From Seohaeicola saemankumensis (GTDB lineage: Bacteria > Pseudomonadota > Alphaproteobacteria > Rhodobacterales > Rhodobacteraceae): DNA of 36,190 bases. The notes beneath the pieces were generated by a model that made no database searches, had not been told where the DNA came from, and saw only the letters and a list, made by a program, of their open reading frames with translations. Position 1 is the stretch's first letter; each line of letters opens with the position of its first letter. Made by a program: the position numbers and the translations under genes. Of the stretch, positions 9,824 through 35,977 are shown one piece after another. The DNA is taken from contig NZ_JAINWI010000026.1 in the NCBI RefSeq assembly GCF_021021435.1, positions 1 to 36,190 of the forward strand. The letters are read 5' to 3'.

Positions 9824-9825
9824 CG

Positions 9826-10479: not shown

Positions 10480-10495
10480 GTGTCACACCCCGCAA

Positions 10496-17169: not shown

Positions 17170-17170
17170 C

Positions 17171-17428: not shown

Positions 17429-17445
17429 AGCCAATGAATTGTTGA

Positions 17446-18278: not shown

Positions 18279-18323
18279 CAGCGGTGACCAGACGAGCGAA
18301 ATAACTCACTGATCTGCTCAACC

Positions 18324-19154
18324 TCAGGCTTTCAATTCGGCCAGGTTCGAACACCATGCATCCATGCCATCCCCCGTTCGGGCCGAGAGGCAGAAGATTT
18401 TCACTCCCGGATTAACTTCCAGAATATTGCGCCTGCACATTTCCTCGTCAAAATCCACATGCGGCGCCAGGTCCATCTTGTTGATCACAACCCATTCCAC
18501 AGCACGGAACATGTGTGGGTATTTGATTGGCTTGTCTTCACCTTCCGTCGTTGAAATCACTGCGATTTTCATCTTCTCGCCCAGATCGAACATGGCCGGA
18601 CACACCAGATTCCCCACATTCTCGATCATCAGGATTGACCCGGTTTGGGGATCCAGCGACTTGACCGCCGACGCGATCATATCCGCTTCCAGATGGCACC
18701 CGGCACCGGTGTTGATCTGGACGGCCCGGGCTCCGGCATCGCGGATGCGGTCGGCGTCATTCGACGTCATCTGATCACCTTCGATCACCGCGATGTCGAC
18801 CGCGCCCTTCATGCGCTTGATCGTCTCTTCGAGCAATGTCGTTTTGCCGGACCCCGGTGAAGAGACGATATTCAGGGCGATGACGCCGCGCCCTTCGAAC
18901 CAGCCGCGGTTGCGGGTCGCGATTTCGTTGTTTTTTCCCAGGATTGCGGTTTCCAGAGAAATAACCTCGCCGCCCGGACCGTGCACATGCGGCTCATCAT
19001 GACCGTGGTGATGGTCGTCATGAGGATGCGCGTGATCATGATCATGTCCATGGTCATGCGCATGATCCTCTCTCAACAGAACTTTGAATCCCGTTTCAGG
19101 ATCGGTCATCGAGACTTCGTTTGCAGGGTCGGCACAGCCGCATACGCCACACAT
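18324..19154 (-). CDS. hypB: Hydrogenase nickel incorporation GTPase HypB
   Basis: 276 residues. The N-terminus MCGVCGC is the high-affinity nickel site of HypB proteins. A His/Asp-rich stretch follows (about residues 32-60), adding nickel storage capacity. The GTPase domain has Walker A SSPGSGKTT, the metal site GAGCHLEADM and the NKMD specificity motif. HypB hands nickel to the large subunit with HypA, using GTP. It follows hypA by two bases with GGAGGA as ribosome binding site and is the last gene of the island. Length is usual for His-rich HypB. Confidence 0.97.
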   Translation of the reverse strand: MCGVCGCADPANEVSMTDPETGFKVLLREDHAHDHGHDHDHAHPHDDHHHGHDEPHVHGPGGEVISLETAILGKNNEIATRNRGWFEGRGVIALNIVSSPGSGKTTLLEETIKRMKGAVDIAVIEGDQMTSNDADRIRDAGARAVQINTGAGCHLEADMIASAVKSLDPQTGSILMIENVGNLVCPAMFDLGEKMKIAVISTTEGEDKPIKYPHMFRAVEWVVINKMDLAPHVDFDEEMCRRNILEVNPGVKIFCLSARTGDGMDAWCSNLAELKA

Positions 19155-19397
19155 TTATGCTTCCTCCAAAAATTCCAACTCGCGGACAGTGAATGTGTCC
19201 TTGTCCGCATCAATAAAACCCAAAGACACCCCGGCAATCGCAGTGCTTTCGGTCACCAGATCCCAGCAAAACGCCAAAGCGCCACGCTCCACGCAAGCCT
19301 GTGGGCCAATGGCCACGCGGACCTCCTTGAGCCTTCGCCCTTTGGCTTTTTCTTCTGCGATACCCGCGATGCTGCGGGCCAGACCGAGTTCATGCAT
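19155..19397 (-). CDS. hypA: HypA-like nickel chaperone lacking the zinc domain
   Basis: An 80-residue protein starting MHELGLARSI at 19397; the ATG overlaps the stop of the permease gene (TGATG). The nickel-binding Met-His-Glu start is intact. Typical HypA proteins have about 113 residues, with a zinc loop of two CxxC pairs about 12 residues apart inserted before the last strand. Here the sequence runs straight from FIDADKDT into the final strand FTVRELEF, so all four zinc cysteines are missing. No frameshift is visible, and flanking spacing is normal. The zinc loop may be unnecessary or supplied by the 74-residue zinc ribbon at 32939-33163. Confidence 0.85.
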   Translation of the reverse strand: MHELGLARSIAGIAEEKAKGRRLKEVRVAIGPQACVERGALAFCWDLVTESTAIAGVSLGFIDADKDTFTVRELEFLEEA

Positions 19398-20149
19398 CAG
19401 CCCACTCCCCAGGCCACTGGTCCGGTTTCCCACATGATCGACAGGCCGATGGCGACAACGATAGCGGCAATGGACATCTGCACGGCGGTATGAAGGCCTT
19501 TTGCGATTTTTGGCGCCTGGAGCACCGGCCAACCGACAACGACGGACAGGGCTGCCATGCCAAGAGCGGACCCAAGCCCGACCAGGCCGACATATCCGAC
19601 AGCCAGCCAGGGGTCGCCGGTCGTGGAGACCGCCAGCACGATGAGCCCAGACGACCCGGCCGCGCCGTGCAGCAGACCAATGACAAGGGCTTTTAGGGGA
19701 AAACGTTCGGGGTGTTCGTGGGCATGCGCGCTTTGGGAATGGTCGGCCACATCGGATGCGTGACTGTGCACGTGCAGGTGCCGACCCTGTCCCTCATGTT
19801 GATGGACGTGATAGTGCAGCCTGTCCTTGCGAAACCTGTGCACGACCTGTGCCCCGAGGAATACCAGCATGACGCCAACAGCAAATTCCAGCCCCGCCGC
19901 GCGCTGCTCACTGAGGACAAGGCTGAAGACTATCACGCCGATGGACATGACCAGCAACGTCGCCGTGTGGCCCAAGCCCCAGACCGCGCCCCGCAACAGG
20001 AGTTTGTTCTTTCCTCCGTTGCTGAGCGTACTGACTGCTGCCAAATGATCTGCTTCGAGGGCGTGAACCATGCCAATCAGAAAACCCAAAAGCAGAAACC
20101 CAGACGATGACGACGCATCAAGAAATGTAAGATTTTCCAGTAAGGCCAT
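19397..20149 (-). CDS. NicO-type nickel permease with His-rich loop
   Basis: 250 residues with six or so hydrophobic segments. The first helix region holds HALEADH (H29 to H35), the HxxxxDH signature of nickel/cobalt permeases. A central hydrophilic loop (about residues 105-145) is packed with His. It resembles RcnA/UreH-like NicO transporters more than HupE. The start is the ATG at 20149, which overlaps the hypE stop (TAATG) and has GAGGA 7 bases before it; an earlier TTG is less likely. Its place between hypE and hypA points to nickel supply for the hydrogenase, although export cannot be excluded. Confidence 0.85.
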   Translation of the reverse strand: MALLENLTFLDASSSSGFLLLGFLIGMVHALEADHLAAVSTLSNGGKNKLLLRGAVWGLGHTATLLVMSIGVIVFSLVLSEQRAAGLEFAVGVMLVFLGAQVVHRFRKDRLHYHVHQHEGQGRHLHVHSHASDVADHSQSAHAHEHPERFPLKALVIGLLHGAAGSSGLIVLAVSTTGDPWLAVGYVGLVGLGSALGMAALSVVVGWPVLQAPKIAKGLHTAVQMSIAAIVVAIGLSIMWETGPVAWGVG

Positions 20150-21195
20150 TAGCAAATCCTCGGAAGTTGTTCGCCGACGAGCATGTCGACGATGCGCAAG
20201 CCACCAAAGACGGTCTTCATCACAACCGTTCGGGGATGTTGGGTGGTGGCCTTGCCGATGATCACGGCCTGACGGCCCGCATCGGTGGCGCGCATTGCGG
20301 ACAACGCAGCGTGAGCCTGTTCTTCGGGGACGAAGATCACCAATGTGCCTTCATTCGCCAGATAAAGGGGATCCAATCCCAGAATTTCGCACACGCCTTT
20401 GACCTCGGTGCGTAACGGCAGGACGTCTTCACCAATCTCAATGCCGACACCCGCCGCATCTGCGATTTCGTTCAAGGCTGAGGCCAGTCCGCCGCGTGTC
20501 GCATCCCGTGCAACCCGCGTGCCCGGTGCGGCGGTCAGAATGGCCTCCATCAGGTGATTGAGCGGCTGACAATCCGAGGGGATTTCGGTGCTGAGCGCCA
20601 TATCGCCACGCGCGGCGAGGATCGCGGCACCGTGATCGCCCAGCACGCCGTTGACGATAGCAACATCGCCCGGCTGCACGGTTTCGGCCAACAGATCACG
20701 GCCCGGCTCAATCACGCCGATGCCGGATGTGGTGATGAAAACGCCGTCACCCGATCCTTTGCCGACCACCTTTGTGTCACCTGTCACGATAGAGACGCCC
20801 GCATCGTCTGCCGCTTTTTGCATCGACGCAGCGATCCGGCGCAGCGTCGAAATCTCGACACCTTCCTCAATGATGAAGGCCGCTGACAGCCACAGTGGCT
20901 TCGCGCCGCCGACGGCCAAATCGTTCACAGTGCCGCAGACGGCGATCTTACCTATGTCGCCACCGGGAAACTCCATCGGCGATACCACGAACCCGTCCGT
21001 GGTAAAGGCCAGCCTCGCTCCGGGTACGGTGACAGCCTCAGTCATCAACCGTGCCTGATCTTCCATGCCGGGCGGACGGAAGACGGACGTGAACACATCC
21101 TCGATCAGGTCTCGCATCGCCTTGCCGCCCCCGCCATGGGCCATCGTCACCTTGTCGGCAACAACACGTCTGGGCTGGCGGTCCATCGCGTTCAT
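20149..21195 (-). CDS. hypE: Hydrogenase maturation protein HypE
   Basis: 348 residues, a normal length. The AIRS/PurM-type ATPase fold is shown by KVTMAHGGGGKAMRDLI and by the GDTKVVGKGSGDG region. The protein ends in PRIC: the C-terminal Cys carries the thiocarbamate that becomes the cyanide ligand of the active-site iron. Its ATG overlaps the hypD stop (ATGA). It receives the carbamoyl group from HypF and passes the ligand to the HypC-HypD complex. Confidence 0.97.
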   Translation of the reverse strand: MNAMDRQPRRVVADKVTMAHGGGGKAMRDLIEDVFTSVFRPPGMEDQARLMTEAVTVPGARLAFTTDGFVVSPMEFPGGDIGKIAVCGTVNDLAVGGAKPLWLSAAFIIEEGVEISTLRRIAASMQKAADDAGVSIVTGDTKVVGKGSGDGVFITTSGIGVIEPGRDLLAETVQPGDVAIVNGVLGDHGAAILAARGDMALSTEIPSDCQPLNHLMEAILTAAPGTRVARDATRGGLASALNEIADAAGVGIEIGEDVLPLRTEVKGVCEILGLDPLYLANEGTLVIFVPEEQAHAALSAMRATDAGRQAVIIGKATTQHPRTVVMKTVFGGLRIVDMLVGEQLPRIC

Positions 21196-22331
21196 TCTGC
21201 CGGCTCCAGATCAAGGCCGCCATATTGGTAATAGGCCGCGCAGGCCCCTTCCGAGCTGACCATCAACGCCCCCAGCGGCATTTCCGGCGTACACCCCTTG
21301 CCGAATTGCGGGCAGGCGTGGGGCTTGATCCGGCCGGTCATGACGTCGCCGCAGGCGCAACCTTCCTGTTCTTCTGTGAACGATGTGTTGCGCCCATAGC
21401 CGATGTTGAATTTCACTTCAGCATCGAAGGCTTTGTACCGGTCGCGAATGCGCAGCCCGCTGGCATCGATCTCGCCCAAACCGCGCCATTCGAAGGTGGG
21501 GCGCGGCTCATAAACCTTTTCACAAGCCGCTATGGACACTGGATTTCCCTCATTGGGAACGATACGCGAATACTGGTTTTCCACCTCGGCGCGGCCATCG
21601 CGAATTTGTTCCAGCACCATCAAAACCGATTGCAACAAGTCCAGCGGCTCGAACCCCGCTACTACGATGGGTTTGCCATAATCGCGCGCGATGAACTGGT
21701 AAGGTTCGGTGCCGATCACCATCGACACGTGGCCGGGGCCGACAAAACCATCCAAAATCATATGCGGGTCATCCAGCAGTGCCTTGATGGGGGGCGGCAC
21801 GGTGATGTGGTTGCAAAAGATCGTGAAATTCGTGAGCCCGTCGGCATCAGCCTGCAGGATCGAAAGCGCGGTCGACGGTGTGGTCGTCTCAAACCCAAGG
21901 CCGAAGAACACAACTTCGCGGTCGGGGTTGCGGCGCGCCAATTCCAGCGCGTCCAGCGGCGAATAGACCATGCGAATGTCGGCCCCATCGGCCTTGGCCT
22001 GGATCAGGGATTTCTTCGTGCCTGGCACACGCATCGCGTCGCCGAAGGTGGTAAAGATCACCTTGGGATCTTCGGCGATCTGCACGCATTCATCCACCCG
22101 GCTCATTGGCAGCACGCAAACCGGGCAGCCAGGGCCGTGAATAAACTCCAGCCCCTTAGGGGTAAGTTTGTCCAACCCATAGCGGAAGATCGCATGGGTG
22201 TGCCCGCCACAGACTTCCATGATGTGAACGGGCTTTTCCTTCGTCGCGCCGATCTCTTGCGTGACGCGTTCTATGGCCGCAAGGACCCCTTTGGCCGCAA
22301 CTGGATCGCGGAATTCATCTGCATACTTCAT
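21192..22331 (-). CDS. hypD: Hydrogenase maturation protein HypD
   Basis: 379 residues from the ATG at 22331, overlapping the hypC stop (ATGA); a longer reading to 22478 lies within hypC. It contains the family motifs EVCGGHTHAI, GPGCPVCV, GFETTTPSTA and the C-terminal cysteine-rich FeS region (EGCACGDV, ACPQFGKGCTPE). HypD holds a [4Fe-4S] cluster and is the scaffold on which the Fe(CN)2CO unit is built with HypC. Confidence 0.97.
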   Translation of the reverse strand: MKYADEFRDPVAAKGVLAAIERVTQEIGATKEKPVHIMEVCGGHTHAIFRYGLDKLTPKGLEFIHGPGCPVCVLPMSRVDECVQIAEDPKVIFTTFGDAMRVPGTKKSLIQAKADGADIRMVYSPLDALELARRNPDREVVFFGLGFETTTPSTALSILQADADGLTNFTIFCNHITVPPPIKALLDDPHMILDGFVGPGHVSMVIGTEPYQFIARDYGKPIVVAGFEPLDLLQSVLMVLEQIRDGRAEVENQYSRIVPNEGNPVSIAACEKVYEPRPTFEWRGLGEIDASGLRIRDRYKAFDAEVKFNIGYGRNTSFTEEQEGCACGDVMTGRIKPHACPQFGKGCTPEMPLGALMVSSEGACAAYYQYGGLDLEPAE

Positions 22332-22621
22332 GATGCGTCCGCCAGCATCGTCGCACTGGCCCGCATCGCCTCTATCTCTTCCTGCGCTTCTCCAAGCTCG
22401 CGCAAGACCTCCAACGTCAGCACCGCTTCCTCTTCGTTGATCTTGCTCATGGCAAAACCGACATGGATCAGGGTCCATGTGCCGATCAGATCCTCCAACG
22501 GATCGTCACCCGCGATACAGGCCACGTTGACCTCGCGTTTCACGCCCGAGATATCGACCATGGCGAGCTTGCGGGTCGCATCCGAAATTTCGGTAATTTG
22601 CCCTGGAATTCCTAGGCACAT
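22328..22621 (-). CDS. hypC: Hydrogenase maturation chaperone HypC
   Basis: 97 residues beginning MCLGIPGQ; the Cys2 next to the start is the iron-carrying residue, and the HVGFAMSKI motif (about residues 53-61) is the usual partner histidine. The last 35 residues form a helix, so the protein is a bit longer than many HypC proteins (75-95). The start overlaps the end of hypF by 10 bases. It moves the Fe(CN)2CO group from HypD to the HupL precursor. Confidence 0.96.
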   Translation of the reverse strand: MCLGIPGQITEISDATRKLAMVDISGVKREVNVACIAGDDPLEDLIGTWTLIHVGFAMSKINEEEAVLTLEVLRELGEAQEEIEAMRASATMLADAS

Positions 22622-24957
22622 CTTGCGTCCTCCCCTTGTGTGTTTGCCAGGGCGATCACGGCTTGCCCCAGTGAAATACCGCCGTCATTCGCCGGATAGT
22701 CGGAATGGCTCAGAACGGTCAGACCAGCGCTTTCCAAGCCGCGGTGGACCAGCTCAAAAAGCGTTGCGTTTTGAAAACAGCCGCCCGACAGGGCGACAGT
22801 GTCGATAGTCGTGTCTTTGGTCAGCCGTATCGCCATTTCGACGACGGAGCGTGCCAACCCGCGGTGGAACCTTGCCGACATCGTGCCAACGGGTGTTTTT
22901 AGCACCAGATCGCCCAGCATCGCCCGCCAAACGGCCAATGGCTCGATGTATGGAATTCCCTTGCCGCCCATCAGCGGGATTGAAAACGGATAGGCCAGAT
23001 CCTCCGGTTCGTTCAGGGCATCCGGGTCAAGCGCAGCCTCAAACAGGATCGCGGCCTCGCCCTCATAATTCTGCCGGTCCCAGGCGATGCCGGAAATCGC
23101 AGCGGCGGCATCGAATAACCGACCACAGGAAGACGCGAGCGGCGTGTTCGTACCGGCCTTGATCATCGCGTCCAGCGTGTCGCGGGGCAGGTCCTGCATG
23201 CGGTTGAAGATCTCAAGGTCAGAGAAATTCATTGCAAACTCGCCCCAGCCCATTTCGGCCATCAGATGGGCATAGGCATTGCGCCAAGGCTCGCGCACAG
23301 CAGCCGTTCCGCCGGGCAGTGCAACTGGCTTCAGACAACCAACCCGACGATACCCATGGTAGTCGCAGATCAGGAATTCACCGCCCCAGATCGTGCCGTC
23401 ATCCCCCAGGCCCGTGCCGTCCAGCGCAATCCCAAGCGCGTGTCCAGCGGACAAAGGCCGACCATTTTCAGCTAGACAAGAGGCGATATGCGCATGGTGG
23501 TGCTGTACCTCGATCACCGGGCGTTCGCCTGCCATCTGGAAACCGCGCTGCGTGGACAGGTATTGCGGGTGCTGATCGACGGCGATGACGTCTGGGGCAT
23601 GATCAAAGAGGTTTTCGTAAAGGCCCAGATTGCGTGTCACATCATCGTTCGTAGCCACATCCTCCAGATCGCCCATATGCTGGGAGACGATCGCGCGTCC
23701 GTCCTTGATCAGGCAGAACGTGTTCTTCTGTTCCGCGCCGAGCGCCAGCACCTCTGCGGAGGTCGAAAACCCGGCCGGCAATTCGAGCCCTTGGGGCGCG
23801 TATCCGCGCGCCCGGCGCAACAAGCGGGGACGGCCAAGGTCAACGCGCACAACACTGTCGTCGATCCGGTTGGCGATGTCGCGGTTATGTAGACAGGCGA
23901 AATCAGCTATATCGGCGAGACGGTCGCGGGTTTCCTGATTGTCAATGCATTGCGGCTGACCCGATGGGTTGCCGCTGGTCATGATCACCGGACGCCCGAT
24001 GCGCCGCAGGATCATGTGATAGAACGGCGTATAGGGCAGCATCACGCCCAGCCGGTCCAGGCCCGGCGCAATCTCATCGGGCAAGCTGTTCGGCTTGGCC
24101 TTGAGCAGCAAAATCGGCGCTTGCGGGCTGGACAGCAGGTCGGCTTCGACATCCGAAACCTCGCAATACGCGCGCACCACATCCAGATCGCGCGCCATCA
24201 GCGCAAAGGCTTTGCCTACCCGCGATTTGCGCTTGCGCAATTCGGCCACGGCGTTGGCATTGGTGGCATCGCACGCCAGATGCACACCGCCCAGACCCCG
24301 GATCGCCACGATATGACCGTTCATGATCATCCCGCCGGTTGCATCAACGTCATCGAGCATCGAAAACGCTTCGAGATTCACCGCGCCCTTGCCAAGTTTC
24401 TCGATCCAGATATTCGGTCCGCACCGGCCACAGGCCACAGGTTGCGCGTGAAAGCGGCGATCCAGCGGATCAGAGTATTCTGCCGCGCAGGGCGGGCACA
24501 GATCAAACGGGGCCATCGTTGTCTTGGCGCGGTCATAAGGGGCGGCCTTTACGATGGAAAAACGCGGCCCGCAATTGGTGCAATTGGCAAAGGGGTAGCG
24601 ATAGCGCCGCTCAAACGGATTGCGGATTTCCTCCAGGCAATCGGCGCAGGTCGCGGCATCCGGCGTGACGCTGCCACGCATCTCTCCTTCCTGCGACGCG
24701 GAGATTTCAAACCCGCAGGGGGGCGGGTCGGTCAGTGGCGTGACATCCAGCCGTTCGATACGGGCTAGTGGCGGCAACGCGCTGTGAAGCTTGTCGGGAA
24801 AGGCCGCAACATGAGCCCCCCAAAGCTGGATCACAACCCCTTCGCCCGTGTTCTTCACATCGCCCGTCAGGCCCATTTCATGCGCCAACCGCCAGACGGT
24901 CGGGCGAAAACCAACGCCCTGAACCTGCCCGGAAACAGTGAAGCGCACGCCGGTCAT
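22612..24957 (-). CDS. hypF: Carbamoyltransferase HypF
   Basis: 781 residues from the ATG at 24957, which overlaps the NHL gene stop (ATGA); the longer reading to 25047 is not supported. Domains in order: acylphosphatase (VQGVGFRPTVWRLA, about residues 1-90), two zinc-finger pairs (CADCLEEI with CTNCGPRF, and CPPCAAEY with CGRCGP), a YrdC-like domain, and the Kae1-like carbamoyltransferase domain with VQHHHAHIA and ALSGGCFQN. It makes the cyanide precursor from carbamoyl phosphate and ATP and loads it on HypE. All domains are complete. Confidence 0.97.
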   Translation of the reverse strand: MTGVRFTVSGQVQGVGFRPTVWRLAHEMGLTGDVKNTGEGVVIQLWGAHVAAFPDKLHSALPPLARIERLDVTPLTDPPPCGFEISASQEGEMRGSVTPDAATCADCLEEIRNPFERRYRYPFANCTNCGPRFSIVKAAPYDRAKTTMAPFDLCPPCAAEYSDPLDRRFHAQPVACGRCGPNIWIEKLGKGAVNLEAFSMLDDVDATGGMIMNGHIVAIRGLGGVHLACDATNANAVAELRKRKSRVGKAFALMARDLDVVRAYCEVSDVEADLLSSPQAPILLLKAKPNSLPDEIAPGLDRLGVMLPYTPFYHMILRRIGRPVIMTSGNPSGQPQCIDNQETRDRLADIADFACLHNRDIANRIDDSVVRVDLGRPRLLRRARGYAPQGLELPAGFSTSAEVLALGAEQKNTFCLIKDGRAIVSQHMGDLEDVATNDDVTRNLGLYENLFDHAPDVIAVDQHPQYLSTQRGFQMAGERPVIEVQHHHAHIASCLAENGRPLSAGHALGIALDGTGLGDDGTIWGGEFLICDYHGYRRVGCLKPVALPGGTAAVREPWRNAYAHLMAEMGWGEFAMNFSDLEIFNRMQDLPRDTLDAMIKAGTNTPLASSCGRLFDAAAAISGIAWDRQNYEGEAAILFEAALDPDALNEPEDLAYPFSIPLMGGKGIPYIEPLAVWRAMLGDLVLKTPVGTMSARFHRGLARSVVEMAIRLTKDTTIDTVALSGGCFQNATLFELVHRGLESAGLTVLSHSDYPANDGGISLGQAVIALANTQGEDARCA

Positions 24958-26132
24958 GTCGCTGCGTCCCAGATCAGAATGCGGTTGTTGCCGCTGTCGG
25001 CCACCGCCACTGTCGACCCCAGGGAGGACAGGCCATAGGGCCAACACACCGTATCGCGTTCGGCGATGCCCCAGCGGTTGTCGCCCTTTGCCGCAAAATC
25101 AGGCTGCGCTGTCAGCCGGTCCGCGTGGGCGGCCATACCTGTATCCTCAAATCCCAAGAGCCGCGAATTAGCCGTGTCAGCCACCACCAACGTCGCCCCA
25201 AGCGTCGCCAGCGCATAGGGCATATTCATCGCTTGAGACGTGGGATAATAGGACGCCATATTGTGGTCGCAGGCGCTCATATCCGCCTGTCCCAGCACGG
25301 TATCGCATGGGGTGCCGTTCCGCTTGGGGAGTGCATCCCAGATCATCACCCGATTGTTGCCAGCGTCCGCAACAGCCAGCCCGTCTTTCCAGACAATGGC
25401 CATATGCGGCCAGCGCATCGAGGCGTCGGACACCGCCTCGCCCGCGTTTTCATCCCGGCAGGTGAAGTCACGCTGCCCCAGAACCAGATCCGCCGGTTGG
25501 CCCGTGGTTTGCGGATCATCCCAGATCAGCACACGGCGGTTTCCGGTGTCGCACACGATCAGCCGGTCGCCATTCGACGACACGCCGTAGGGCCAGTGCA
25601 TCGTATCGGCCCGCGCGTGCGACAGGCCCACATTTGCCAGTGCACTGCCCGCGTCGGGCTGCCCCAGAACAATGTCGGCGCCGTGTTCGGGGCCGGCTGG
25701 CGTTTCGCGCCAGATCAGCACGCGGTGGTTCCACGGGTCGGCTACCGCCAATCCGCCGCGAAAGGCCGTGATGCCGGTCGGGACATTCACGGTGTTCGCA
25801 GCCACGAGGCCCTTTGCGTTGCGGCCTTCGCGGCCAAAGTCGGGCTGGCCCAAAAGTATATCGGCAGGGGTGTCATCCCGGGTCGGAACCGTCTTCCACC
25901 CCAGCACCCGGTGATGCCCAGTATCGGATACCCAGAGAGAGCCGTCAGGATGCAGGCAGACGCCACGCGGCCCGAACATCAGGTGGGGCGCAGGGGTGAT
26001 CGCCTGAACCAGCGAACCACCATCGCTGCCTAAAACAACCCGCGCGCCCTGCGTGCCCAACAAGGGCGCACCGGGGGTTATGGTGCCGGGCGCCTTCTGC
26101 GGACTGAACGATCGGGACAGCGAGACTTTCAC
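24954..26132 (-). CDS. NHL-repeat beta-propeller protein of the hydrogenase cluster
   Basis: 392 residues; the start is a GTG at 26132 overlapping the stop of the NifU-Rieske gene (GTGA), with GAGG 8 bases upstream. At least six repeats are visible, each ending in a VADxxNxRVLIW-type strand (VSDTGHHRVLGW, VADPWNHRVLIW, VCDTGNRRVLIW, VADAGNNRVMIW, VADTANSRLLGF, VADSGNNRILIW) and most containing LGQPDF-like segments, so a six-bladed NHL propeller is likely. No signal peptide, thus cytoplasmic. NHL proteins accompany group 2a hydrogenases such as Huc, as I recall. A role as interaction scaffold for the enzyme is inferred. Confidence 0.85.
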   Translation of the reverse strand: MKVSLSRSFSPQKAPGTITPGAPLLGTQGARVVLGSDGGSLVQAITPAPHLMFGPRGVCLHPDGSLWVSDTGHHRVLGWKTVPTRDDTPADILLGQPDFGREGRNAKGLVAANTVNVPTGITAFRGGLAVADPWNHRVLIWRETPAGPEHGADIVLGQPDAGSALANVGLSHARADTMHWPYGVSSNGDRLIVCDTGNRRVLIWDDPQTTGQPADLVLGQRDFTCRDENAGEAVSDASMRWPHMAIVWKDGLAVADAGNNRVMIWDALPKRNGTPCDTVLGQADMSACDHNMASYYPTSQAMNMPYALATLGATLVVADTANSRLLGFEDTGMAAHADRLTAQPDFAAKGDNRWGIAERDTVCWPYGLSSLGSTVAVADSGNNRILIWDAAT

Positions 26133-26998: not shown

Positions 26999-27001
26999 CG
27001 C

Positions 27002-27223: not shown

Positions 27224-27232
27224 AGCGCCCTC

Positions 27233-27427: not shown

Positions 27428-27443
27428 CTGTATTCTCCATTTT

Positions 27444-28445: not shown

Positions 28446-28568
28446 ACCGTTTTCTCCCTCGAATCGAATTTGGTTCGATTTCCGTGTTTGACAGAGAAAA
28501 GCAGTCAAAGTGGGGGGCTGTCAACTTTCTTGTTTTATAGCAAACTTAGTTTGCATTTTTTCGTTGCG
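28446..28568 (-). promoter_or_regulatory. Promoter and operator region of the TPR operon
   Basis: The spacer between the two hydrogenase operons. It contains three perfect inverted repeats: 28540-28554 (GCAAACT, 1 base, AGTTTGC), 28487-28509 (TTTGAC, 11 bases, GTCAAA) and 28462-28480 (AATCGAA, 5 bases, TTCGATT), the last inside the leader. On the minus strand TTGACA begins at 28526, but no good -10 follows at 16 to 18 bases. The TGCAAACT motif recurs twice upstream of hupS, suggesting a shared regulator. Confidence 0.5.
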
Positions 28569-28871
28569 CTATTCCGACTTTAAAATCGCGCAAAGGGCGC
28601 CTTTATCGGCCTCCCACGCGACGGTCAGATCGTTGGATGCAAAGTCGAGAAGGTCCCGATCCTGAAACACATCGCGTGCCTGAACCACCCGATCACCCGC
28701 AGCATTCCGGACCTTCAAAAGGCACCCCCCGGCGGTTGCCTGATGGACGGGCATCACCATCAATTCTTCCTGTTGGATCAGTACGATGACCGCATCAATA
28801 CCGCGGAAATAGGTGTCGACCACGGCACTGGGCAGATAGATCGCACCGTCCCTGATCGCGATCGTGCTCAT
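28569..28871 (-). CDS. Small conserved-looking protein of the hydrogenase cluster, unknown function
   Basis: 100 residues from the ATG at 28871, which overlaps the protease stop (ATGA). Its first 45 residues alternate strands and turns (IRDGAIYLPSAVVDTYF, then DAVIVLIQQEELMVMPV), a pattern resembling swapped-hairpin or AbrB-like folds; the rest (LKVRNAAGDRVVQARDVF) continues in beta strands. No metal motif, signal peptide or membrane segment. It is probably a small soluble accessory or assembly factor. I do not recognise the family. Confidence 0.7.
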   Translation of the reverse strand: MSTIAIRDGAIYLPSAVVDTYFRGIDAVIVLIQQEELMVMPVHQATAGGCLLKVRNAAGDRVVQARDVFQDRDLLDFASNDLTVAWEADKGALCAILKSE

Positions 28872-29341
28872 GCCTGAGACCACGTATGGATCAGGTCGCG
28901 AATGCGGCCCTCAACGGTCCCCGCGGCGCGAGAAACCTCGTCACTCAATCCCAACCCGAGCTCCAGCGTTGCCGCCTCGATCAAAAGCACCGACGTCGTC
29001 TTGGGAAACGCATCGCCATAGATACGACGACCTGCGTAAAGCGCATGGTCCCATCTGAAATCATGCAGGTTCAGGCTGTTGTTTGGCGGCGCCTCGAGCA
29101 CATCACCTGGGACCTCGAATATGGCACCCGGGGATCCTTCGGGGATCCGCGCATCGACAATGATCAAATGTGTCGCCCCGCGCGCACTGTACATGACCGA
29201 CATACCGTCGGTTCCGCCGTCAAAAACCCGCGTGTGGTCCGGGACGCCGTTTTCTCGCATTTGAGCGATGAGATGCGGGCCGACGCCGTCGTCGCTTCGG
29301 TTCGGATTGCCGCATCCGATGACGACGATATCAAGCGGCAT
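28868..29341 (-). CDS. Hydrogenase maturation protease (HupD/HybD/HupW family)
   Basis: 157 residues from the ATG at 29341, overlapping the stop of the preceding gene (TGATG). The start IVVIGCGNPNRSDDGVGP is the family signature, whose acidic residue binds nickel; further ligands are expected in VFDGGTDGMS and in the His of NLHDFRWDH. The enzyme cleaves the C-terminal tail of HupL once nickel is in place. Here the tail is the 16 residues after His517 of HupL. It is the only protease in the window and sits directly in the hupSL operon. Confidence 0.95.
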   Translation of the reverse strand: MPLDIVVIGCGNPNRSDDGVGPHLIAQMRENGVPDHTRVFDGGTDGMSVMYSARGATHLIIVDARIPEGSPGAIFEVPGDVLEAPPNNSLNLHDFRWDHALYAGRRIYGDAFPKTTSVLLIEAATLELGLGLSDEVSRAAGTVEGRIRDLIHTWSQA

Positions 29342-29652
29342 CAAATCCGCCATAGGCGGCAAGACCATTCCGGTTCAACCGGCACCATCAATTCCGGCAA
29401 GTCGCAGAATTTCGCATGTACCTTGTAGTACATGCAGGTCTCGCAGGGTTGCTCAATCTCGTCAGCCTCGATCGTGTGATCGGTGAACCCGGCGACAATC
29501 AGTTTCTTTTCCAGATCGTCGCCGGCCTCAACCTGCAGGCGCGCCACGATTTCATTGACTTCCTCGCTGGTCCCGGCACGTGGCCAAACCTCGGTTTCCA
29601 GACCCGAGGCCAGCATATCGGCAATTCTCGCGCGCACCTTTTCGTCGTCCAT
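29341..29652 (-). CDS. Four-cysteine HiPIP-like protein 2
   Basis: 103 residues from the ATG at 29652 with AAGGGAG upstream. The N-terminal two-thirds are acidic and helical. The last 35 residues carry four Cys, C70, C73, C83 and C98, in the order C-x2-C-x9-C-x14-C, with CMYYKVH, CDLPEL and the ending EWSCRLWRI. This closely mirrors the high-potential iron-sulfur protein layout (CxxC, C-x-FPG, and W-C-x-W near the end), so a [4Fe-4S] or zinc site is likely. It is a paralogue of the neighbouring gene. No signal peptide, so it is cytoplasmic, unlike classical HiPIPs. An electron carrier for the hydrogenase is an attractive inference. Confidence 0.75.
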   Translation of the reverse strand: MDDEKVRARIADMLASGLETEVWPRAGTSEEVNEIVARLQVEAGDDLEKKLIVAGFTDHTIEADEIEQPCETCMYYKVHAKFCDLPELMVPVEPEWSCRLWRI

Positions 29653-29665
29653 TTCTGCGCTCCCT

Positions 29666-30052
29666 TCAGATCCGCCAGAGGCGGCACCACCATTCCGGTT
29701 TTGCCGGAAGATCAAGCTCTGGCAGGTCGCACCAGCGCTTGTGTACCAGGTAGTACATGCATTCCTGGCACCGCATTTGGTCTTCGCCGTATGGCTGCAA
29801 CAGCCAGCCCGAAATCACAAGTTTCTCGCGCAGTTGATCCGCGCTCAGGGGGCGCAACTGGTCAAGCAGCGCCCCGAATTCCCGATCAGTCTCCGGGAAT
29901 GGCTCAACCTCGGTTTCCAATCCTTCTGCGAAATGGTCCTCTATCATTTGGATGAGCATTTCATGCCCCGCTTCGGCGGGTGTCAGGCCATACTTGTCTA
30001 TGTAAGCTTGGCGCTGCTCTTGAGTTATTGATGCTTCCGGATTTTCTGACAT
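29666..30052 (-). CDS. Four-cysteine HiPIP-like protein 1
   Basis: 128 residues from the ATG at 30052, preceded by GGGAGGGAG. It is a paralogue of the next gene: shared GLETEVEPFP/GLETEVWP, LREKLVISG/LEKKLIVAG and an identical cysteine layout at C95, C98, C108 and C123, again C-x2-C-x9-C-x14-C, with CMYYLVH, CDLPEL and WWCRLWRI. The N-terminus carries an extra helix of about 25 residues. It lies 67 bases after hupL, separated by a hairpin. The tandem pair is probably an ancient duplication. Zinc binding is the main alternative to an iron-sulfur cluster. Confidence 0.75.
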   Translation of the reverse strand: MSENPEASITQEQRQAYIDKYGLTPAEAGHEMLIQMIEDHFAEGLETEVEPFPETDREFGALLDQLRPLSADQLREKLVISGWLLQPYGEDQMRCQECMYYLVHKRWCDLPELDLPAKPEWWCRLWRI

Positions 30053-30085
30053 TCAGCTCCCTCCCTAATTGCCGGATGTCGTCGG

Positions 30086-30110
30086 TCGGCAGATTTGATC
30101 CGCCGACCAA
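30086..30110 (-). repeat. Intergenic hairpin between hupL and the HiPIP-like genes
   Basis: GGTCGGC and GCCGACC form a perfect 7-base stem. After a G-T pair the stem goes on with three more pairs around a CAA loop. On the coding strand it is not followed by a T-run, so it is not a standard terminator. Placed after the most abundant gene product, it may slow mRNA decay or reduce readthrough, as described for hairpins in some hup operons. Confidence 0.6.
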
Positions 30111-30119
30111 AAATAAACA

Positions 30120-31721
30120 TCAGGCTGTTCGGAAGCGGGCCAGTTCGTCGCCTGTTTTGGCATCATGCGCATGAACGGTGCAAACTAGGCAGCTGTCATA
30201 GGATCGGCAAACGTGACCAACCTCAACCGGGTCCGCGCTGTTCTTGATCGGTGTGCCGATCAGCGCTTCCTCTATGGGCCCCCGATCGCCGTCGGATGTG
30301 CGCGGCCCAACATTCCAAGTCGTTGGCGCAATGATCTGGTAGTTGGCGATCTTGCCATCACGCACGTCAATCCAGTGGCACAATGCGCCGCGGATGGCCT
30401 CGGTTGCGCCCCAGCCCTGACCGTCTTTTTCAGTTGGCTTTATATACCATTCGTCGTTCAGTTTGAACTCGCGCAAATTGCGTTCGGCTTCGCGATAGAG
30501 AATGCAAAGCTCGTGCATGCGCGCAAAGTGCCGCAGCATCGTCGAGGCACCGCCCATCTTGCGGTACATATCAAGCACCAATCCGTCGCTGTGTTGGAAG
30601 TCATGGCCCGTGTCATTGCCCGCGATCAAGCGACGCGCGAGCGGACCTGCTTCCAGACGTCCGGCCTCTGCATGAGACACGGCCGTTGACCAGGAGTATT
30701 TGCCCTCGGGATCGATGGGGTTTTTGCTCACCGGGTTCGTGGTCCGGTCGAACGGGTGCACCCCGCCCGCCGCCTCGTCGTACCAGGCGTGCTGCGTGTC
30801 TTCGCGGACAAAAGACTGGTCCATCGGGCGGAATGTGTCGGATGCGCCGTCATAGATGCCCGATTTCATGATCACCGCATCTGCGCGGCCATCAATCGTG
30901 GGGTTCTGGTACTTGTCTTCATGCGGCAGATAGCCCCATGTGGTGAACCGGCCGTGGCCTTTGCCATACTGATCAAGGCCAATGTCCTTGGACATACGCC
31001 AGAACAGGCCCAGGTCCGAATTTGCGTGCTCCGGCTTTTCATCCAGCCACGCTTCGAATTGCTCCAAGGTCTGGATTTCTTCGTAACGCTCCATCGAGCA
31101 GCCCAGCCACAGCGGCTCGATCCAGTTCTGGCGGAAATGCTCAAGGATCGACCAGGCGCGGGTGATGTCCGTCAGGGTGGGCGAGCACATGACGCCGCCG
31201 GGCACCATGAAGGAGGAGTGCGGCCACTGACCGCCCAGAAGGGCGTAGATCTCGACCGGGCGGCCGGAGATTGTCACCCCCGCTTCATAGGATGTGCCGG
31301 TAAACGGGGAATAGCGTTTGACGGCTTCCTCATAAAACGGGCTCATCGCGTAATTTTCGTTGGTGTAATCGATCATCCACAGCCCGTAGTGGTGGCGGGG
31401 CAGGGATTGTAGCGATTCAACGATCTGGCCAAGGTTGCGTGCCAGAATAGCGTTGCGCGGTACCGTGGTGCCCCAGGCCGTATCCAGCGCCCAAGCTGCA
31501 CAAGTCAGGTGCGACGCGCCGCAAATCCCGCAGGCGCGAGGCGTCACAACCAGACCCGCTTGGGGGTCCTTGTCCTTCAGGATGACTTCGAACCCGCGAA
31601 ACATTTCCGCATGGGTCCAGGCGTTTGTCACAACGCCGTTTTCAATATCGACCCGGACATCCAGATCGCCTTCGACGCGGCCAACTGGCGAAATGTCGAG
31701 TGTTTCTACTGCTGCAGACAT
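30120..31721 (-). CDS. hupL: [NiFe] uptake hydrogenase large subunit, group 2a type
   Basis: 533 residues from the ATG at 31721, with GGGAGAGAG 4 bases upstream; the reading from 31736 is less likely. The nickel ligands are in RACGICG (C64, C67) and SYDSCLVCTVH (C511, C514), and His517 marks the end of the mature protein. The usual Pro before the first Cys of the second motif is Ser here. The overall sequence matches cyanobacterial HupL and mycobacterial Huc in my recollection. A 16-residue tail follows for protease cleavage. It oxidises H2 at the active site and passes electrons to HupS. Confidence 0.96.
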   Translation of the reverse strand: MSAAVETLDISPVGRVEGDLDVRVDIENGVVTNAWTHAEMFRGFEVILKDKDPQAGLVVTPRACGICGASHLTCAAWALDTAWGTTVPRNAILARNLGQIVESLQSLPRHHYGLWMIDYTNENYAMSPFYEEAVKRYSPFTGTSYEAGVTISGRPVEIYALLGGQWPHSSFMVPGGVMCSPTLTDITRAWSILEHFRQNWIEPLWLGCSMERYEEIQTLEQFEAWLDEKPEHANSDLGLFWRMSKDIGLDQYGKGHGRFTTWGYLPHEDKYQNPTIDGRADAVIMKSGIYDGASDTFRPMDQSFVREDTQHAWYDEAAGGVHPFDRTTNPVSKNPIDPEGKYSWSTAVSHAEAGRLEAGPLARRLIAGNDTGHDFQHSDGLVLDMYRKMGGASTMLRHFARMHELCILYREAERNLREFKLNDEWYIKPTEKDGQGWGATEAIRGALCHWIDVRDGKIANYQIIAPTTWNVGPRTSDGDRGPIEEALIGTPIKNSADPVEVGHVCRSYDSCLVCTVHAHDAKTGDELARFRTA

Positions 31722-31743
31722 AATTCTCTCTCCCAAATCGCAG

Positions 31744-32706
31744 TTAGACTACGAAGATATCTTCTTCGGCCCAGGCCGGTGCCGCGCCTTTGGCGGCTGC
31801 GGTGAGCTTGATGTAACCCTTCTTGTCGACACCCTCGGGCATGTCCTTGGGAACCCCCATGACGGTTTGCGTCTTGAAGACAGTGCCCGGAGCCAGATCG
31901 AAGAATGGGAATTCCGGTTCAGTGCATCCAAGACAGGGCATGCCCGCACGGGTCTTTGACGAATGGCGGTTCCAAAGGATGCGGTTGCAAGGACTGTGTG
32001 TCATGGGCCCGCGGCAGCCCAGATCATAGAACAGGCACCCCTTGCGCTGGCCGAACGCCGTCGTCGACACCTTGTAGGCAAAGTGCATGTTGCGCGTGCA
32101 CCCGGTCTGCGTGAAGGATGAAAAGAACGTCTTGGGGCGATGAAATTCATCCAGCGTTAGATCACCGGCACGGCCCGTAGCAACGGCAACGAGAATTTGC
32201 GTCACCCAATCGGGATGCGCCGGGCATCCCGGAATGTTGATCACCGGCAGACCGGATTTCGCCGCAAACCCTTCGCCCAATGCGCCACCCTTATCGCGCT
32301 TCAGGAACTGCAGGCCAACGCTTTCGGATGGGTTCGGCGCCGTAGCTGGGATGCCGCCATAGGTCGCGCAATCGCCGATCGCCACAACGAAATCGGCAAC
32401 GGCCGAAAGCTCTTTCACCCAGTCTTTCATCGGGCGTCCGCAGAACCGGTTCCATTCGCCGGTGCCGTTGGGCGCGTTGATCACCGTGCCCTCGAACACG
32501 AAGATATCCAACTTGATCTCGCCCGAGATGCACTTTTCGACGATCTCTTTGACCTGGTCGCCCAGTTCAAGCCCAAGAGAGGGTTGCCAAAGCACGTTGA
32601 TTCCGAAGTCGGTGACCAGATCACACGCACTTGGTTCCTCCGCATTCAGAAAAGACATCGTGTTGCCGGAACACGCACCCCCCTGAAGCCACAACAGATT
32701 TGCCAT
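31744..32706 (-). CDS. hupS: [NiFe] uptake hydrogenase small subunit, group 2a type
   Basis: 320 residues from the ATG at 32706 (GGGAGG just upstream). No Tat signal is present, so the enzyme stays in the cytoplasm. The start LLWLQGGACSGNT, the segment GDCATYGG and IPGCPAHPDW form the proximal cluster region, but Asn15 replaces the second Cys of the usual CxxC. The distal cluster's histidine is missing too: TQTGC replaces HxxC. The medial region (CNRIL...CLGC) is intact. These features fit the group 2a enzymes, in which Huc has three [3Fe-4S] clusters. hupL follows after 22 bases. Confidence 0.96.
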   Translation of the reverse strand: MANLLWLQGGACSGNTMSFLNAEEPSACDLVTDFGINVLWQPSLGLELGDQVKEIVEKCISGEIKLDIFVFEGTVINAPNGTGEWNRFCGRPMKDWVKELSAVADFVVAIGDCATYGGIPATAPNPSESVGLQFLKRDKGGALGEGFAAKSGLPVINIPGCPAHPDWVTQILVAVATGRAGDLTLDEFHRPKTFFSSFTQTGCTRNMHFAYKVSTTAFGQRKGCLFYDLGCRGPMTHSPCNRILWNRHSSKTRAGMPCLGCTEPEFPFFDLAPGTVFKTQTVMGVPKDMPEGVDKKGYIKLTAAAKGAAPAWAEEDIFVV

Positions 32707-32938
32707 TTTCTTCCTCCCAAGGACCAGCATTTATTGCGGCGCATTCCGCAACCCAGAACCATGTCTTCTGCTTGGCATGAGGGCGAAAGGCGCGAGTTTG
32801 ATGCTGCAATGTTGTACCGCGCCACGCAGTACTGCAAATCAACACATTTGGTCGGGGCGGCCTATTCTGGTAACAAAGTGCATACTGCAAACTAAGTATT
32901 CAGGGGCAATTGCAAACTTTGCTGACAGTCTAGGGGGC
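32707..32938 (-). promoter_or_regulatory. Upstream region of hupSL with repeated TGCAAACT elements
   Basis: A 232-base spacer. On the plus strand TGCAAACTAAGT lies at 32886-32897 and TGCAAACTTTGC at 32911-32922, 25 bases apart start to start; the second contains a small dyad (GCAAA, 1 base, TTTGC). The same core forms a perfect palindrome upstream of the TPR operon. This looks like binding sites for the cluster's regulator. No confident -35/-10 or sigma-54 promoter could be assigned. The zinc ribbon stop lies inside a GGGGG...CCCCC hairpin at the upstream end. Confidence 0.5.
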
Positions 32939-33163
32939 TCAACTCCGTCCCCCGCACACCGGGCATTCGGCTTCTCCAAAGTAGCTGTACCAGATCCCTT
33001 TACAATTCTTGCACCAATGTCCCTTGGCACCCGCGCCCGAACCAGACAAAGCCCGCGACAGGGCCGTCAGACCGAGATTGCGCGGTTCGGACCGGGTCTT
33101 TGACAGGCCGGATCTGGCATACGGGAATCCGATGACTTTATTGGCAGGCGTGTCATCGTCCAT
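32939..33163 (-). CDS. Stand-alone four-cysteine zinc ribbon
   Basis: 74 residues from the ATG at 33163, three bases after the regulator stop. The first 45 residues are polar and probably flexible. The C-terminus carries C51, C54, C67 and C70 in the order C-x2-C-x12-C-x2-C-G, with the hydrophobic GIWYSYFGEAE between the pairs. This matches the cysteine spacing of the HypA zinc loop exactly and is far too short between the pairs for rubredoxin. Because the HypA of this cluster lacks that loop, the protein may supply it in trans. A regulator partner or Zn/Fe sensor is the alternative, since it is coupled to the regulator gene. Confidence 0.7.
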   Translation of the reverse strand: MDDDTPANKVIGFPYARSGLSKTRSEPRNLGLTALSRALSGSGAGAKGHWCKNCKGIWYSYFGEAECPVCGGRS

Positions 33164-33166
33164 ATC

Positions 33167-34609
33167 TTACCCTTTGCGCAGGCCGTATCGTTTTATCTTG
33201 TTCGCCAGCCCGACTCGCGACAGGCCCAACTCTTCTGCAACCTTGCTTTGGTTCCAGTGAAACGCCGCGAGCGCCTGGGTCAAGACGGCCTGCTCCAGAT
33301 GTTCGACTTTGTCTTTGAGTGTCGCGCCAGATGTCAAAAACGCCGCGCTCTCGTGGTTCTCGATTGGCGTACGCGCGATCTTTTCCGATAAGTGCCTTAA
33401 CGCAACATACCCACCCTGTTCCGCCACCGCGACCATGCGCTGAACTTCACTTTCCAGTTCCCGGACATTCCCTGGAAACGGATAGTGCTCCAGTTGTTTC
33501 AGGACGTCCGATGTGACGCCCAATACCCGCCGACCAACCACGCCTGCATATTTCTCAACAAAGAACTGCGTCAACACCGGGATGTCGTCAGTCCGGTCGC
33601 GAAGCGCAGGCAGTTCCAACTGAAACCCGCGCAGTCGATAATACAGATCACGGCGGAAACTGCCTTCTTCCACCATCTCTTCGATCGAACGGTTGGATGC
33701 CGCGATGATCCGCACGTTGCTGTGCAGGGTTTTATCAGAGCCGAGCGGTTTCACTTCGCCCTCTTGCAGAAAGCGCAGGAGGGCCACCTGAAAATGCGGT
33801 GACACTTCTGAGACCTCGTCCAGAAACACAGTGCCGCCATCGGCGGCCCGAAACAGGCCCAACCGGTCCGCAATGGCCCCCGGAAAGGCGCCACGCACAT
33901 GGCCGAAAAGCTCGGAGTACAACGCGTCGTCAGACACACTGCCACAGTTCTGGCTGTGCATGGGCGAGTTCACGCGATCAGAGTTGAAATGAATGGCGCG
34001 CGCCAAAAGCTCTTTGCCGGTGCCTGTCTCGCCCCGGATCAGCACAGGCATGTCCGTCGAGGCTGCAACTCTCGCTTCGGCGACCAATTCGGCCATCTTG
34101 GGGCTTGAGTAGACCAACCTCTCAAAGCGTGAAACACCCCCCTGGACCGACCCTCCCTCTTCGTCCGCGAAAATCTCATCGTCCAGCGAAAGCTTGAGCT
34201 CTCTGCTCAGAATCCGGTGTCGGCGCGACAGCTCGGCATGTTCCAGGGCGCGCTTGACGACTATGCGGATCTGCTGCTCTTGCACCGGTTTGGCGAGATA
34301 CAAATAGGACGCCGTATCTTCACATAGCTGCGCACCACGGCTCAGTTCATTTTTTTCGCAAACGACAATTCGCCAACACGCGGTATGAGACAAGCGAGAC
34401 CGCACCAAAGCGTTGTCCGGTCCAATATCATCCTCATCGAAATCATAAAGAATGAGGTCCACGTTCACTTCATTCAGGCGGCTCTTTGCGGAATTGTCAT
34501 CCTCGCAGAAGATCAACCGGTACCCATCCAACTCGCTCAGGGCGCTTGAAGCGGCCAAGGTCAAAGCCTTGTCCTTCGATTTGATAAGAACCGTAGAAAT
34601 ATTGGACAA
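33167..34609 (-). CDS. NtrC-family regulator of the hydrogenase cluster (HoxA/HupR-like)
   Basis: 480 residues if it starts at the TTG at 34609 (GGAG 11 bases upstream). This places TVLIKSKD, the first receiver strand, right at the N-terminus, as is usual; the ATG at 34672 lies inside a 9-base inverted repeat. Receiver domain: about residues 5-120 with likely phospho-Asp D56 (LYDF) and Lys107, but the usual acidic pair after strand 1 is replaced by KSK. AAA+ domain: Walker A GETGTGKE, Walker B VFLDEV. The GAFTGA loop reads GAFPGA. A Fis-type helix-turn-helix ends the protein (KVAEELGLSRVGLANKI). No sensor kinase is nearby. Confidence 0.88.
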   Translation of the reverse strand: MSNISTVLIKSKDKALTLAASSALSELDGYRLIFCEDDNSAKSRLNEVNVDLILYDFDEDDIGPDNALVRSRLSHTACWRIVVCEKNELSRGAQLCEDTASYLYLAKPVQEQQIRIVVKRALEHAELSRRHRILSRELKLSLDDEIFADEEGGSVQGGVSRFERLVYSSPKMAELVAEARVAASTDMPVLIRGETGTGKELLARAIHFNSDRVNSPMHSQNCGSVSDDALYSELFGHVRGAFPGAIADRLGLFRAADGGTVFLDEVSEVSPHFQVALLRFLQEGEVKPLGSDKTLHSNVRIIAASNRSIEEMVEEGSFRRDLYYRLRGFQLELPALRDRTDDIPVLTQFFVEKYAGVVGRRVLGVTSDVLKQLEHYPFPGNVRELESEVQRMVAVAEQGGYVALRHLSEKIARTPIENHESAAFLTSGATLKDKVEHLEQAVLTQALAAFHWNQSKVAEELGLSRVGLANKIKRYGLRKG

Positions 34610-35242
34610 GGTGCTAGGATCTCCGTCGCCGCTAGTGTTTGCTGGATCAGTATCAGCAAACCTTCTTTGCATAAAGAGAACTATTTATGCAAGTTTTGGC
34701 TGCAATCTGGCTGTGGAGCGCAAATCCAACGCTGCTTTGCCAGTTGTGAGCATGGCGCGTAACGTCGTGTCGCTGCGTTCCTCGGTAATTGCCTTCCAGC
34801 TCTCGCTCTTCTGTGAAAACCTTCACGGAACGCTGGATCACATCGAAGCAAGAAATCTATGACCTTGTCGAGCAACCGCTATGGCAACTTGAGCGGCACA
34901 GCAAGACAGGGCTGGCCGCATCTGCCAGCAATGTCTACGCAAGCGAAAACCGCGTAGCATGAATCCGTTCCCCGCGGATTCCCGCTCTGTGCAGCAAAGG
35001 ATCGATCAGATGATGCTCGTACGGACCAAGGTCAATGACGGGTTTGGCGACATCTGTTGCAACGCAGCGAAACACTCGCTGCAAGTGCAATCAGATGCTG
35101 CGCAAGCAATAGCCGCACTAGCGAAAGGCGGGTTTGTCCTGCTCTCCGGACAAACGCACCGAAAGCAGCGAAGGGCCGGTATTTGAACAACTCAGCACGC
35201 TAAAATTCTCGCAGCATGATGGCAAAGCTGTCTTTGTCAGCG
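34610..35242. other. Intergenic region upstream of the regulator
   Basis: No supported gene in about 630 bases. A perfect inverted repeat lies at 34667-34692. A 75-codon frame on the plus strand (34959-35186) has no recognised product, no clear ribosome binding site and the look of non-coding sequence. The rest is probably junction sequence at the right border of the hydrogenase island. Confidence 0.45.
34667..34692. repeat. Perfect 9-base inverted repeat over the upstream start of the regulator
   Basis: TTGCATAAA and TTTATGCAA are separated by 8 bases. The ATG at 34672 falls within one arm, so translation from that codon seems unlikely. The element looks like a dimeric operator, perhaps for autoregulation of the cluster's NtrC-type regulator. 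It supports the downstream TTG at 34609 as the real start. Confidence 0.6.
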
Positions 35243-35938: not shown

Positions 35939-35977
35939 ACTGGGGGACCTCCGTGAGAGGAGTTCAGCATACATACG

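Follow-up and report, generated by a model that had tools for sequence, protein, structure and literature searches.

A group 2a uptake-hydrogenase locus as probable exchangeable cargo beside the virB genes of a roseobacter conjugative-plasmid backbone

The stretch of DNA analyzed here (36,190 bp, hereafter the window) is the entire contig NZ_JAINWI010000026.1 (C19) of Seohaeicola saemankumensis, one of 75 contigs in the draft genome, and carries a [NiFe]-hydrogenase locus next to a virB-type type IV secretion system (T4SS). The hydrogenase block comprises 20 intact, contiguous genes on the minus strand (18324-34672), which are transcribed from a sigma-54-type regulator through the subunit genes hupS and hupL, a series of small accessory genes and the maturation genes to hypA and hypB (Table 1). 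The spacing is operon-like, as 16 of 19 neighboring gene pairs overlap or lie at most 25 bp apart; larger gaps were found before hupS (232 bp), before the tetratricopeptide repeat (TPR)-like gene (123 bp) and after hupL (67 bp). All 13 reading frames that were re-checked with adjusted starts were open and without internal stop. Pfam was run on 40 of the 138 listed open reading frames (ORFs) of the window, while Rfam and tRNA scans of the window gave no match. An initial annotation had described structural, maturation, regulator and accessory genes as one contiguous minus-strand block, and Pfam families, reading frames and spacing bear this out. Its gene content was correct but incomplete, as the 74-aa Zn-ribbon-like ORF and two mini membrane proteins had been overlooked, and the nickel uptake gene it listed is present as a weak NicO-like match. 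The extent of 18324-34692 given there covers the minus-strand block, but the unit shared with other plasmids is wider. The G+C content of the island is 58.7%, compared to 62.2% in the T4SS.

Table 1. Features of the window; hydrogenase genes are listed in the order of transcription, followed by the shared unit and the backbone.
Feature	Position	Strand	Evidence
Sigma-54-dependent (NtrC-family) regulator	33167..34672	-	PF00158 E 1.1e-60, HTH_8
74-aa Zn-ribbon-like protein	32939..33163	-	tblastn in 43/59 loci; Pfam: sub-threshold ribbon matches only
HupS/HucS small subunit, no Tat signal	31744..32706	-	HucS 7uur E 1e-159, full-length alignment
HupL/HucL large subunit, 533 aa	30120..31721	-	PF00374; Huc 7utd E 4e-177; two CxxC motifs; tree
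cys1, small protein, four C-terminal cysteines	29666..30052	-	alignment of 46 sequences; 46/59 loci
cys2, paralogue of cys1	29341..29652	-	alignment and locus searches
Hydrogenase maturation protease	28868..29368	-	TIGR00072 121.6 bits, above cut-off
Conserved 100-aa protein, no assigned function	28569..28871	-	tblastn across alphaproteobacterial clusters
TPR-like protein (position of Nostoc alr0691)	27444..28445	-	33% over 230 aa to annotated TPR protein of Sulfobacillus (L143); no TPR call by Pfam
Mini membrane protein TM1, start uncertain	~27233..27427	-	tblastn in 44/59 loci
Mini membrane protein TM2	~27002..27223	-	tblastn in 49/59 loci, five cyanobacterial
NifU-Rieske fusion (HucE position)	26129..26998	-	PF01106, PF00355
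NHL-repeat protein	24954..26132	-	PF01436
HypF	22612..24957	-	PF22521, PF01300, PF07503
HypC	22328..22621	-	PF01455
HypD, SIS-less type	21192..22331	-	PF01924; tree
HypE	20149..21195	-	PF00586, PF02769
NicO-like nickel permease (weak)	19397..20155	-	PF03824 E 1.8e-4, 21.4 bits vs cut-off 27.7
HypA	19155..19397	-	PF01155
HypB	18324..19154	-	PF02492
Shared island unit	~17896..35117		one 17,229-column block, 87% identical to Octadecabacter plasmid pow41, other backbone setting there
VirD4, C-terminal 131 aa, cut by left contig end	3..398	+	87% to P. gallaeciensis VirD4 residues 536-667
virB-type T4SS operon	5074..16558	-	Pfam: virB6, virB11, virB10, virB9, virB8, virB5-like, lytic transglycosylases, virB4
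Left slot flank: small backbone genes	16726..17816	+	empty-site homology ends at 17816
Right slot flank: secreted-looking backbone protein	35243..35974	-	empty-site homology restarts at 35245

Several lines of sequence evidence support the assignment of the enzyme to the group 2a [NiFe]-hydrogenases, as had been proposed. In the PDB the closest match of HupL was HucL and that of HupS was HucS, and HupS could be aligned to the entire HucS, the CSGN stretch included; in the Huc complex, HucS carries three [3Fe-4S] clusters. In a maximum-likelihood tree of 74 rows, which was midpoint-rooted, gave long-branch warnings on the outgroups and used a reference set without groups 2e and 2f, HupL was placed with strong support inside group 2a, in a proteobacterial clade adjoining cyanobacterial HupL (together 54 rows, support 100/99). 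Mycobacterium, Thermus, Sulfobacillus and Runella came next (58 rows, support 100/97), and HupL stood apart from 13 HupV-like proteins of the same family with Cupriavidus HoxC (group 2b), as well as from group 1d (HoxG/HupL). HupL contains the motifs CGIC at 64 and CLVC at 511, which we take to be the L1 and L2 motifs whose four cysteines ligate the NiFe centre, and a C-terminal extension; a protease is encoded in the locus. The N-terminus of HupS reads MANLLWLQGG without twin-arginine, in agreement with the earlier statement that a twin-arginine translocation (Tat) signal is absent. Rieske (HucE) and NHL genes belong to group 2a clusters according to the available text of PMC7784904, and both markers are present in the window.

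The mycobacterial Huc, as described in the accessible part of PMC10017518 and compared here by means of the Mycobacterium intracellulare cluster L141, shares the catalytic pair, a NifU family protein, the NHL protein and the protease with the window. It differs by the scaffold HucM (DUF1641): PF07849 gave no match over the cut-off in the draft genome, and tblastn with a mycobacterial DUF1641 protein found nothing in the window. A strict Huc identity (HucSLM) was therefore rejected, and the term Huc-like in the initial annotation holds for the catalytic pair but not for HucM. Conversely, cys1, cys2, the Zn-ribbon protein, TM1 and TM2 were not found in L141.

These small accessory proteins were compared across 59 loci of uneven length, so that absence from a short locus means little. 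Both cys1 and cys2 were present in 46 loci, all proteobacterial, while the other 13 were ten cyanobacterial loci, one mycobacterial locus, one Sulfobacillus plasmid and the truncated L052. In an alignment of 46 cys1/cys2 sequences (the window's cys1, 27 of 33 cys1 rows and 18 of 32 cys2 rows) 25 columns were invariant, four cysteines among these; the rows left out included L045 and L051, which contain undetermined residues, and the cys2 of L017, a locus from a metagenome-assembled genome (MAG), which lacks the second cysteine. For cys1 there was no Pfam or PDB sequence match, profile searches gave nothing convincing, and Foldseek returned nothing (best E 6.1). Its AlphaFold model had a mean predicted local distance difference test score of 78.6, while within the cysteine region the averages for the first part (blocks 91-110) were 49 and 60. 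The idea that cys1 might be an electron carrier comes solely from its four-cysteine pattern, which we presume to be HiPIP-like; structure model, Foldseek and profile searches did not support it, and the role stays putative. The Zn-ribbon-like gene, located between the regulator and hupS, is listed only in L007 among the six annotated clusters L002-L007, whose tables are incomplete. Two types of HypD were observed in alphaproteobacterial group 2a clusters (L002-L060). Counting only loci with a HypD match, a SIS-domain gene was present in 15 of 15 loci whose HypD is 63-72% identical to that of the window, and in none of the 24 loci at 79-97%. The SIS-less HypD proteins form one clade with a long stem (support 100/100), but the HypD type does not track HupL, as L017 and L036 belong to the HupL clade of the window and yet carry SIS.

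The region to the left of the island is colinear with conjugative roseobacter plasmids. Positions 5068-17816 follow the virB operon of many roseobacter plasmids, with 226 records matching the left half of the window, and virB2 and virB3 were assigned by colinearity only; the same backbone resumes at 35245-36030. In Phaeobacter gallaeciensis pP128_b these flanks are only 131 bp apart, i.e. the slot is empty. Both flanks were found in 52 plasmid records among the matches listed for each of them (60 of 136 and 60 of 303 matching records); their spacing was 130-144 bp in 16 records and 0.94-84.8 kb in 36, several of the records come from sister strains and are almost copies of each other, and rearrangement may contribute to the large gaps. 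The Dinoroseobacter shibae plasmids pDSHI01 and pDSHI03 (NC_009955, NC_009957) cover 72% of the left half of the window at about 90% identity and have the same slot, but the unrelated DNA in it measures just 7.9 kb or 1.45 kb, not enough for the island. The region beside virB is a recurrent cargo slot, which in the window is occupied by the hydrogenase island. This agrees with the initial annotation, which had located the island inside a conjugation module, between virB genes and a conjugation-associated secreted protein; the gene of the latter is also found next to this slot in other plasmids, and in sister plasmids the slot is empty or otherwise filled.

We read the locus as a complete, self-sufficient group 2a uptake-hydrogenase locus that is carried as exchangeable cargo beside the virB genes of a roseobacter conjugative-plasmid backbone, with a probability of about 0.82. 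A number of observations weigh against this reading. Among the 40 ORFs given to Pfam there was neither a relaxase or replication gene nor an integrase or transposase that might account for mobility; inverted repeats above background were absent from the island ends. A search of the draft genome with a P. gallaeciensis relaxase, run without a positive control, found no relative, the one PF03432 relaxase match in the draft is on another contig (C20), and VirD4 is truncated at the contig edge. Since relaxase, full VirD4 and replication genes were not seen on the contig, the window's own transfer is an inference, and its plasmid status likewise. In addition, the NicO-like permease falls below its Pfam cut-off, and no canonical sigma-54 promoter was found upstream of hupS in the window, where matches to this promoter occurred at chance level; across the compared loci (L016 and L053 excluded) it was found at this place in 5 of 55, versus 7 of 2000 random stretches. 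In Roseovarius indicus, which carries a related island, the related T4SS flank is about 50 kb from the island, so that adjacency to virB is not general. Finally, VirB4 was searched in 39 of 51 loci, leaving out ten cyanobacterial, one gammaproteobacterial and one fragmentary acidobacterial locus. A VirB4-like match was found on the hydrogenase contig in 6 of these 39 other alphaproteobacterial genomes, three of them only 29-31% identical, while in another 6 the cluster is located on contigs of 400-784 kb without such a match. The initial annotation had named a chromosomal cluster without conjugation genes as evidence to the contrary, and these six genomes go part of the way; the cluster is therefore not tied to conjugative plasmids, though it is repeatedly carried by them.

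The region might instead be a plasmid or conjugative element integrated in the chromosome, with the hydrogenase fixed in the strain rather than plasmid-borne. This would fit a draft contig on which no replication gene was seen while three repC matches are all located on other contigs, and a structurally conserved T4SS is found on a chromosome in Confluentimicrobium (available text of PMC5513947). However, colinearity with many plasmid records extends to both flanks, and Pfam detected no integrase among the 40 ORFs; we consider integration unlikely.

Exchange of such islands is best seen in a sister island, which shares gene content and order with the window at 87.6% DNA identity. Over 16.5-16.8 kb, its copies in the six genomes compared all agree at 99.89-100.00% identity; these genomes are from Octadecabacter, Roseovarius indicus, Nioella, an Aestuariivita MAG, Thiosulfatihalobacter and Brevirhabdus (one MAG, three draft assemblies and two complete plasmid records). 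In contrast, the rpoB regions of five of these genera (loci of about 7 kb rather than the gene alone, R. indicus not included) are 79.6-83.6% identical. In sliding windows on pow41 the identity was near 100% across the island, with one 500-bp window at 97.6% in Thiosulfatihalobacter. The shared tract extends 2-4 kb beyond the island on the left side, with one window at 97-99%, and its right end is close to position 42170 of L003, a place at which pow41 also carries a 1-kb insertion; beyond the tract, identity was 84-97% (left flank in three genomes, right flank in three). Strong purifying selection or contamination, rather than recent transfer, could also be invoked for this near-identity, as hydrogenases are conserved proteins and most of the six genomes are drafts or a MAG. 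Yet in six hydrogenase genes the window and pow41 share only 60-68% of four-fold sites, and with 32-40% of them different the sequence is free to drift; moreover, identity falls outside the tract and complete plasmid records account for two of the six, which makes this explanation very improbable. A recent transfer of the sister island between six genera is thus well supported by these comparisons, in line with the horizontal spread in Rhodobacteraceae suggested earlier.

The identity drop outside the tract would be explained more readily by homologous recombination between related plasmids than by a discrete transposon. A transposon origin was not supported, as the island ends lack inverted repeats above background. 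A 13-bp direct repeat at 17768 and 34845, about 17 kb apart, was rejected as the unit boundary: its left copy belongs to the backbone, pow41 and R. indicus lack the right one, and the repeat, which does not mark the edge of the unit, is probably due to chance. At the regulator end of the island, several sister plasmids share the site of an insertion or a contig break (L003 24769-24807); the insertion is 8.5 kb with phosphonate-transport genes in R. indicus and about 1 kb in Nioella.

The slot beside virB was probably filled by a hydrogenase cluster a second time. In Pseudaestuariivita atlantica the cluster is inverted beside the same T4SS and right flank, it shares only 26-38% of four-fold sites with the window in six hydrogenase genes, versus 50-71% in six virB genes, and its HupL is placed on a different branch of the tree; together, this points to a separate capture at the same slot. 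In a Tabrizicola MAG the hydrogenase cluster adjoins a more distant T4SS. Within the family, a HupL match of at least 88% identity was detected in 7 of 394 genomes (the window included), one of them a fragment, and 42 other genomes have matches at 32-38% only; this sample included a single further genome of the genus, which had no HupL match. HupL of Bosea (L022, L024), which we take to belong to the Hyphomicrobiales, nests among Pseudotabrizicola and Paracoccaceae proteins, and this position suggests transfer between orders.

Two side observations concern the backbone. A second cargo slot is located between virD4 and virB6, with a type IIG restriction-methylase-like gene in the window (1202-4081) and, in related plasmids, mer genes or, in the same matched stretch, SAVED/nucleotidyltransferase, TrlF and other genes. 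Parts of a second, diverged copy of the T4SS region are broken across the ends of two contigs of the draft genome (G000:C11, L086; G000:C42, L085).

In the mechanism we propose, the regulator would switch on the hydrogenase operon, and the NicO-like protein, HypA-F and the protease would build the NiFe centre. Cytoplasmic HupSL would then oxidize H2 down to atmospheric or lower levels, with electrons passing through the HupS clusters towards the quinone pool; TM1 and TM2, perhaps with cys1 and cys2, might stand in for the HucM scaffold. Homologous recombination would be the main route of the island from plasmid to plasmid, and conjugation its route from cell to cell; according to the accessible text of PMC4886583, the above D. 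shibae plasmids transfer to Phaeobacter inhibens, i.e. between genera. H2 would serve as extra energy during growth on organic carbon. The draft genome of the window had no match to RuBisCO, which argues against autotrophy, no NifD above the cut-off and no second HupL-like place at E 0.001; mixotrophic H2 scavenging is therefore the best reading. Scavenging of atmospheric H2 by this enzyme would follow by analogy, as oxidation is published only for relatives. In the available part of PMC10305171, Sphingopyxis alaskensis RB2256 takes up H2 to sub-atmospheric levels during growth, while two marine isolates with a group 1l hydrogenase showed no substantial H2 consumption, so gene presence alone is no proof of activity.

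The enzyme could alternatively recycle H2 from nitrogenase, a role known from heterocystous cyanobacteria. Outside the proteobacteria, the HupL clade closest to the window is the cyanobacterial one, and the accessory genes match the extended hyp operon of Nostoc, where two mini proteins with two transmembrane segments, TPR, NifU-like and NHL genes precede hypF (PMC2408588, as far as available). However, the only NifD-family match in the draft reached 42 bits against a cut-off of 654 (G000:C8:37043-38056) and likely represents a related reductase; nitrogenase recycling therefore has hardly any probability. We assume that this match might be a subunit of dark-operative protochlorophyllide reductase, which would suggest an aerobic anoxygenic phototroph. 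That the hydrogenase is a sensor (group 2b/2c) regulating another hydrogenase, as its adjoining sigma-54-type activator might indicate, can practically be dismissed, since HupL is only 35-38% identical to the 13 HupV-like proteins and outside their clade, the genome lacks another HupL match at the above threshold, and HupL has a C-terminal extension with a protease in the locus.

Enzyme class, plasmid-borne occurrence and plasmid type are already known. The closest literature is the statement of Lappan 2023 on S. alaskensis (PMC10305171, available in part). The locus on the F plasmid of strain RB2256 has the same order and content from regulator to hypB (HupL 84%, HupS 91% identical), but that plasmid is typed mobilizable (MOBQ) with no virB genes annotated, and the locus (L002) differs in having a SIS-domain gene and in its HypD, which is of the other type. 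The islands of Octadecabacter pow41 and R. indicus pRIdsm_03 have the genes and order of the window on plasmids typed conjugative (MOBP/MPF_T); they differ in being located not beside virB but with a YhaV toxin gene on one side, and pRIdsm_03 has a strawberry-notch gene annotated on the opposite side. The Nostoc hupSL system with its similar accessory genes is found in N2-fixing species (PMC2408588); HupL of ten cyanobacterial loci is 67-73% identical to that of the window, and cys1/cys2 were not found in these loci. Within a partial literature collection, we found no description of group 2a islands on roseobacter conjugative plasmids, nor of the recent spread, the repeated capture or the HucM-free gene set; the available text of PMC13386836, PMC4886583 and PMC5513947 contains no word beginning with "hydrogenase".

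As near-identical sister islands occur in six genera, energy gain from H2 looks like a trait passed between bacteria. A bolder interpretation, which we regard as possible but rather doubtful, is that marine Rhodobacteraceae pass on the oxidation of atmospheric H2 as a ready-made trait: a single conjugation would make a trace-gas mixotroph of a heterotroph, and the island would be sweeping between genera, captured more than once at the same slot and working without HucM by means of cys1, cys2, the Zn-ribbon protein, TM1 and TM2, which would link HupSL to the membrane. The HucM-free gene set makes the membrane electron hand-over of non-mycobacterial group 2a enzymes testable. Marine H2 consumption is a recently recognized energy source; if carriage on conjugative plasmids and a recent sweep hold true, H2 oxidation in the ocean would not be readable from taxonomy, and its gain and loss would be traceable in the laboratory with existing isolates.

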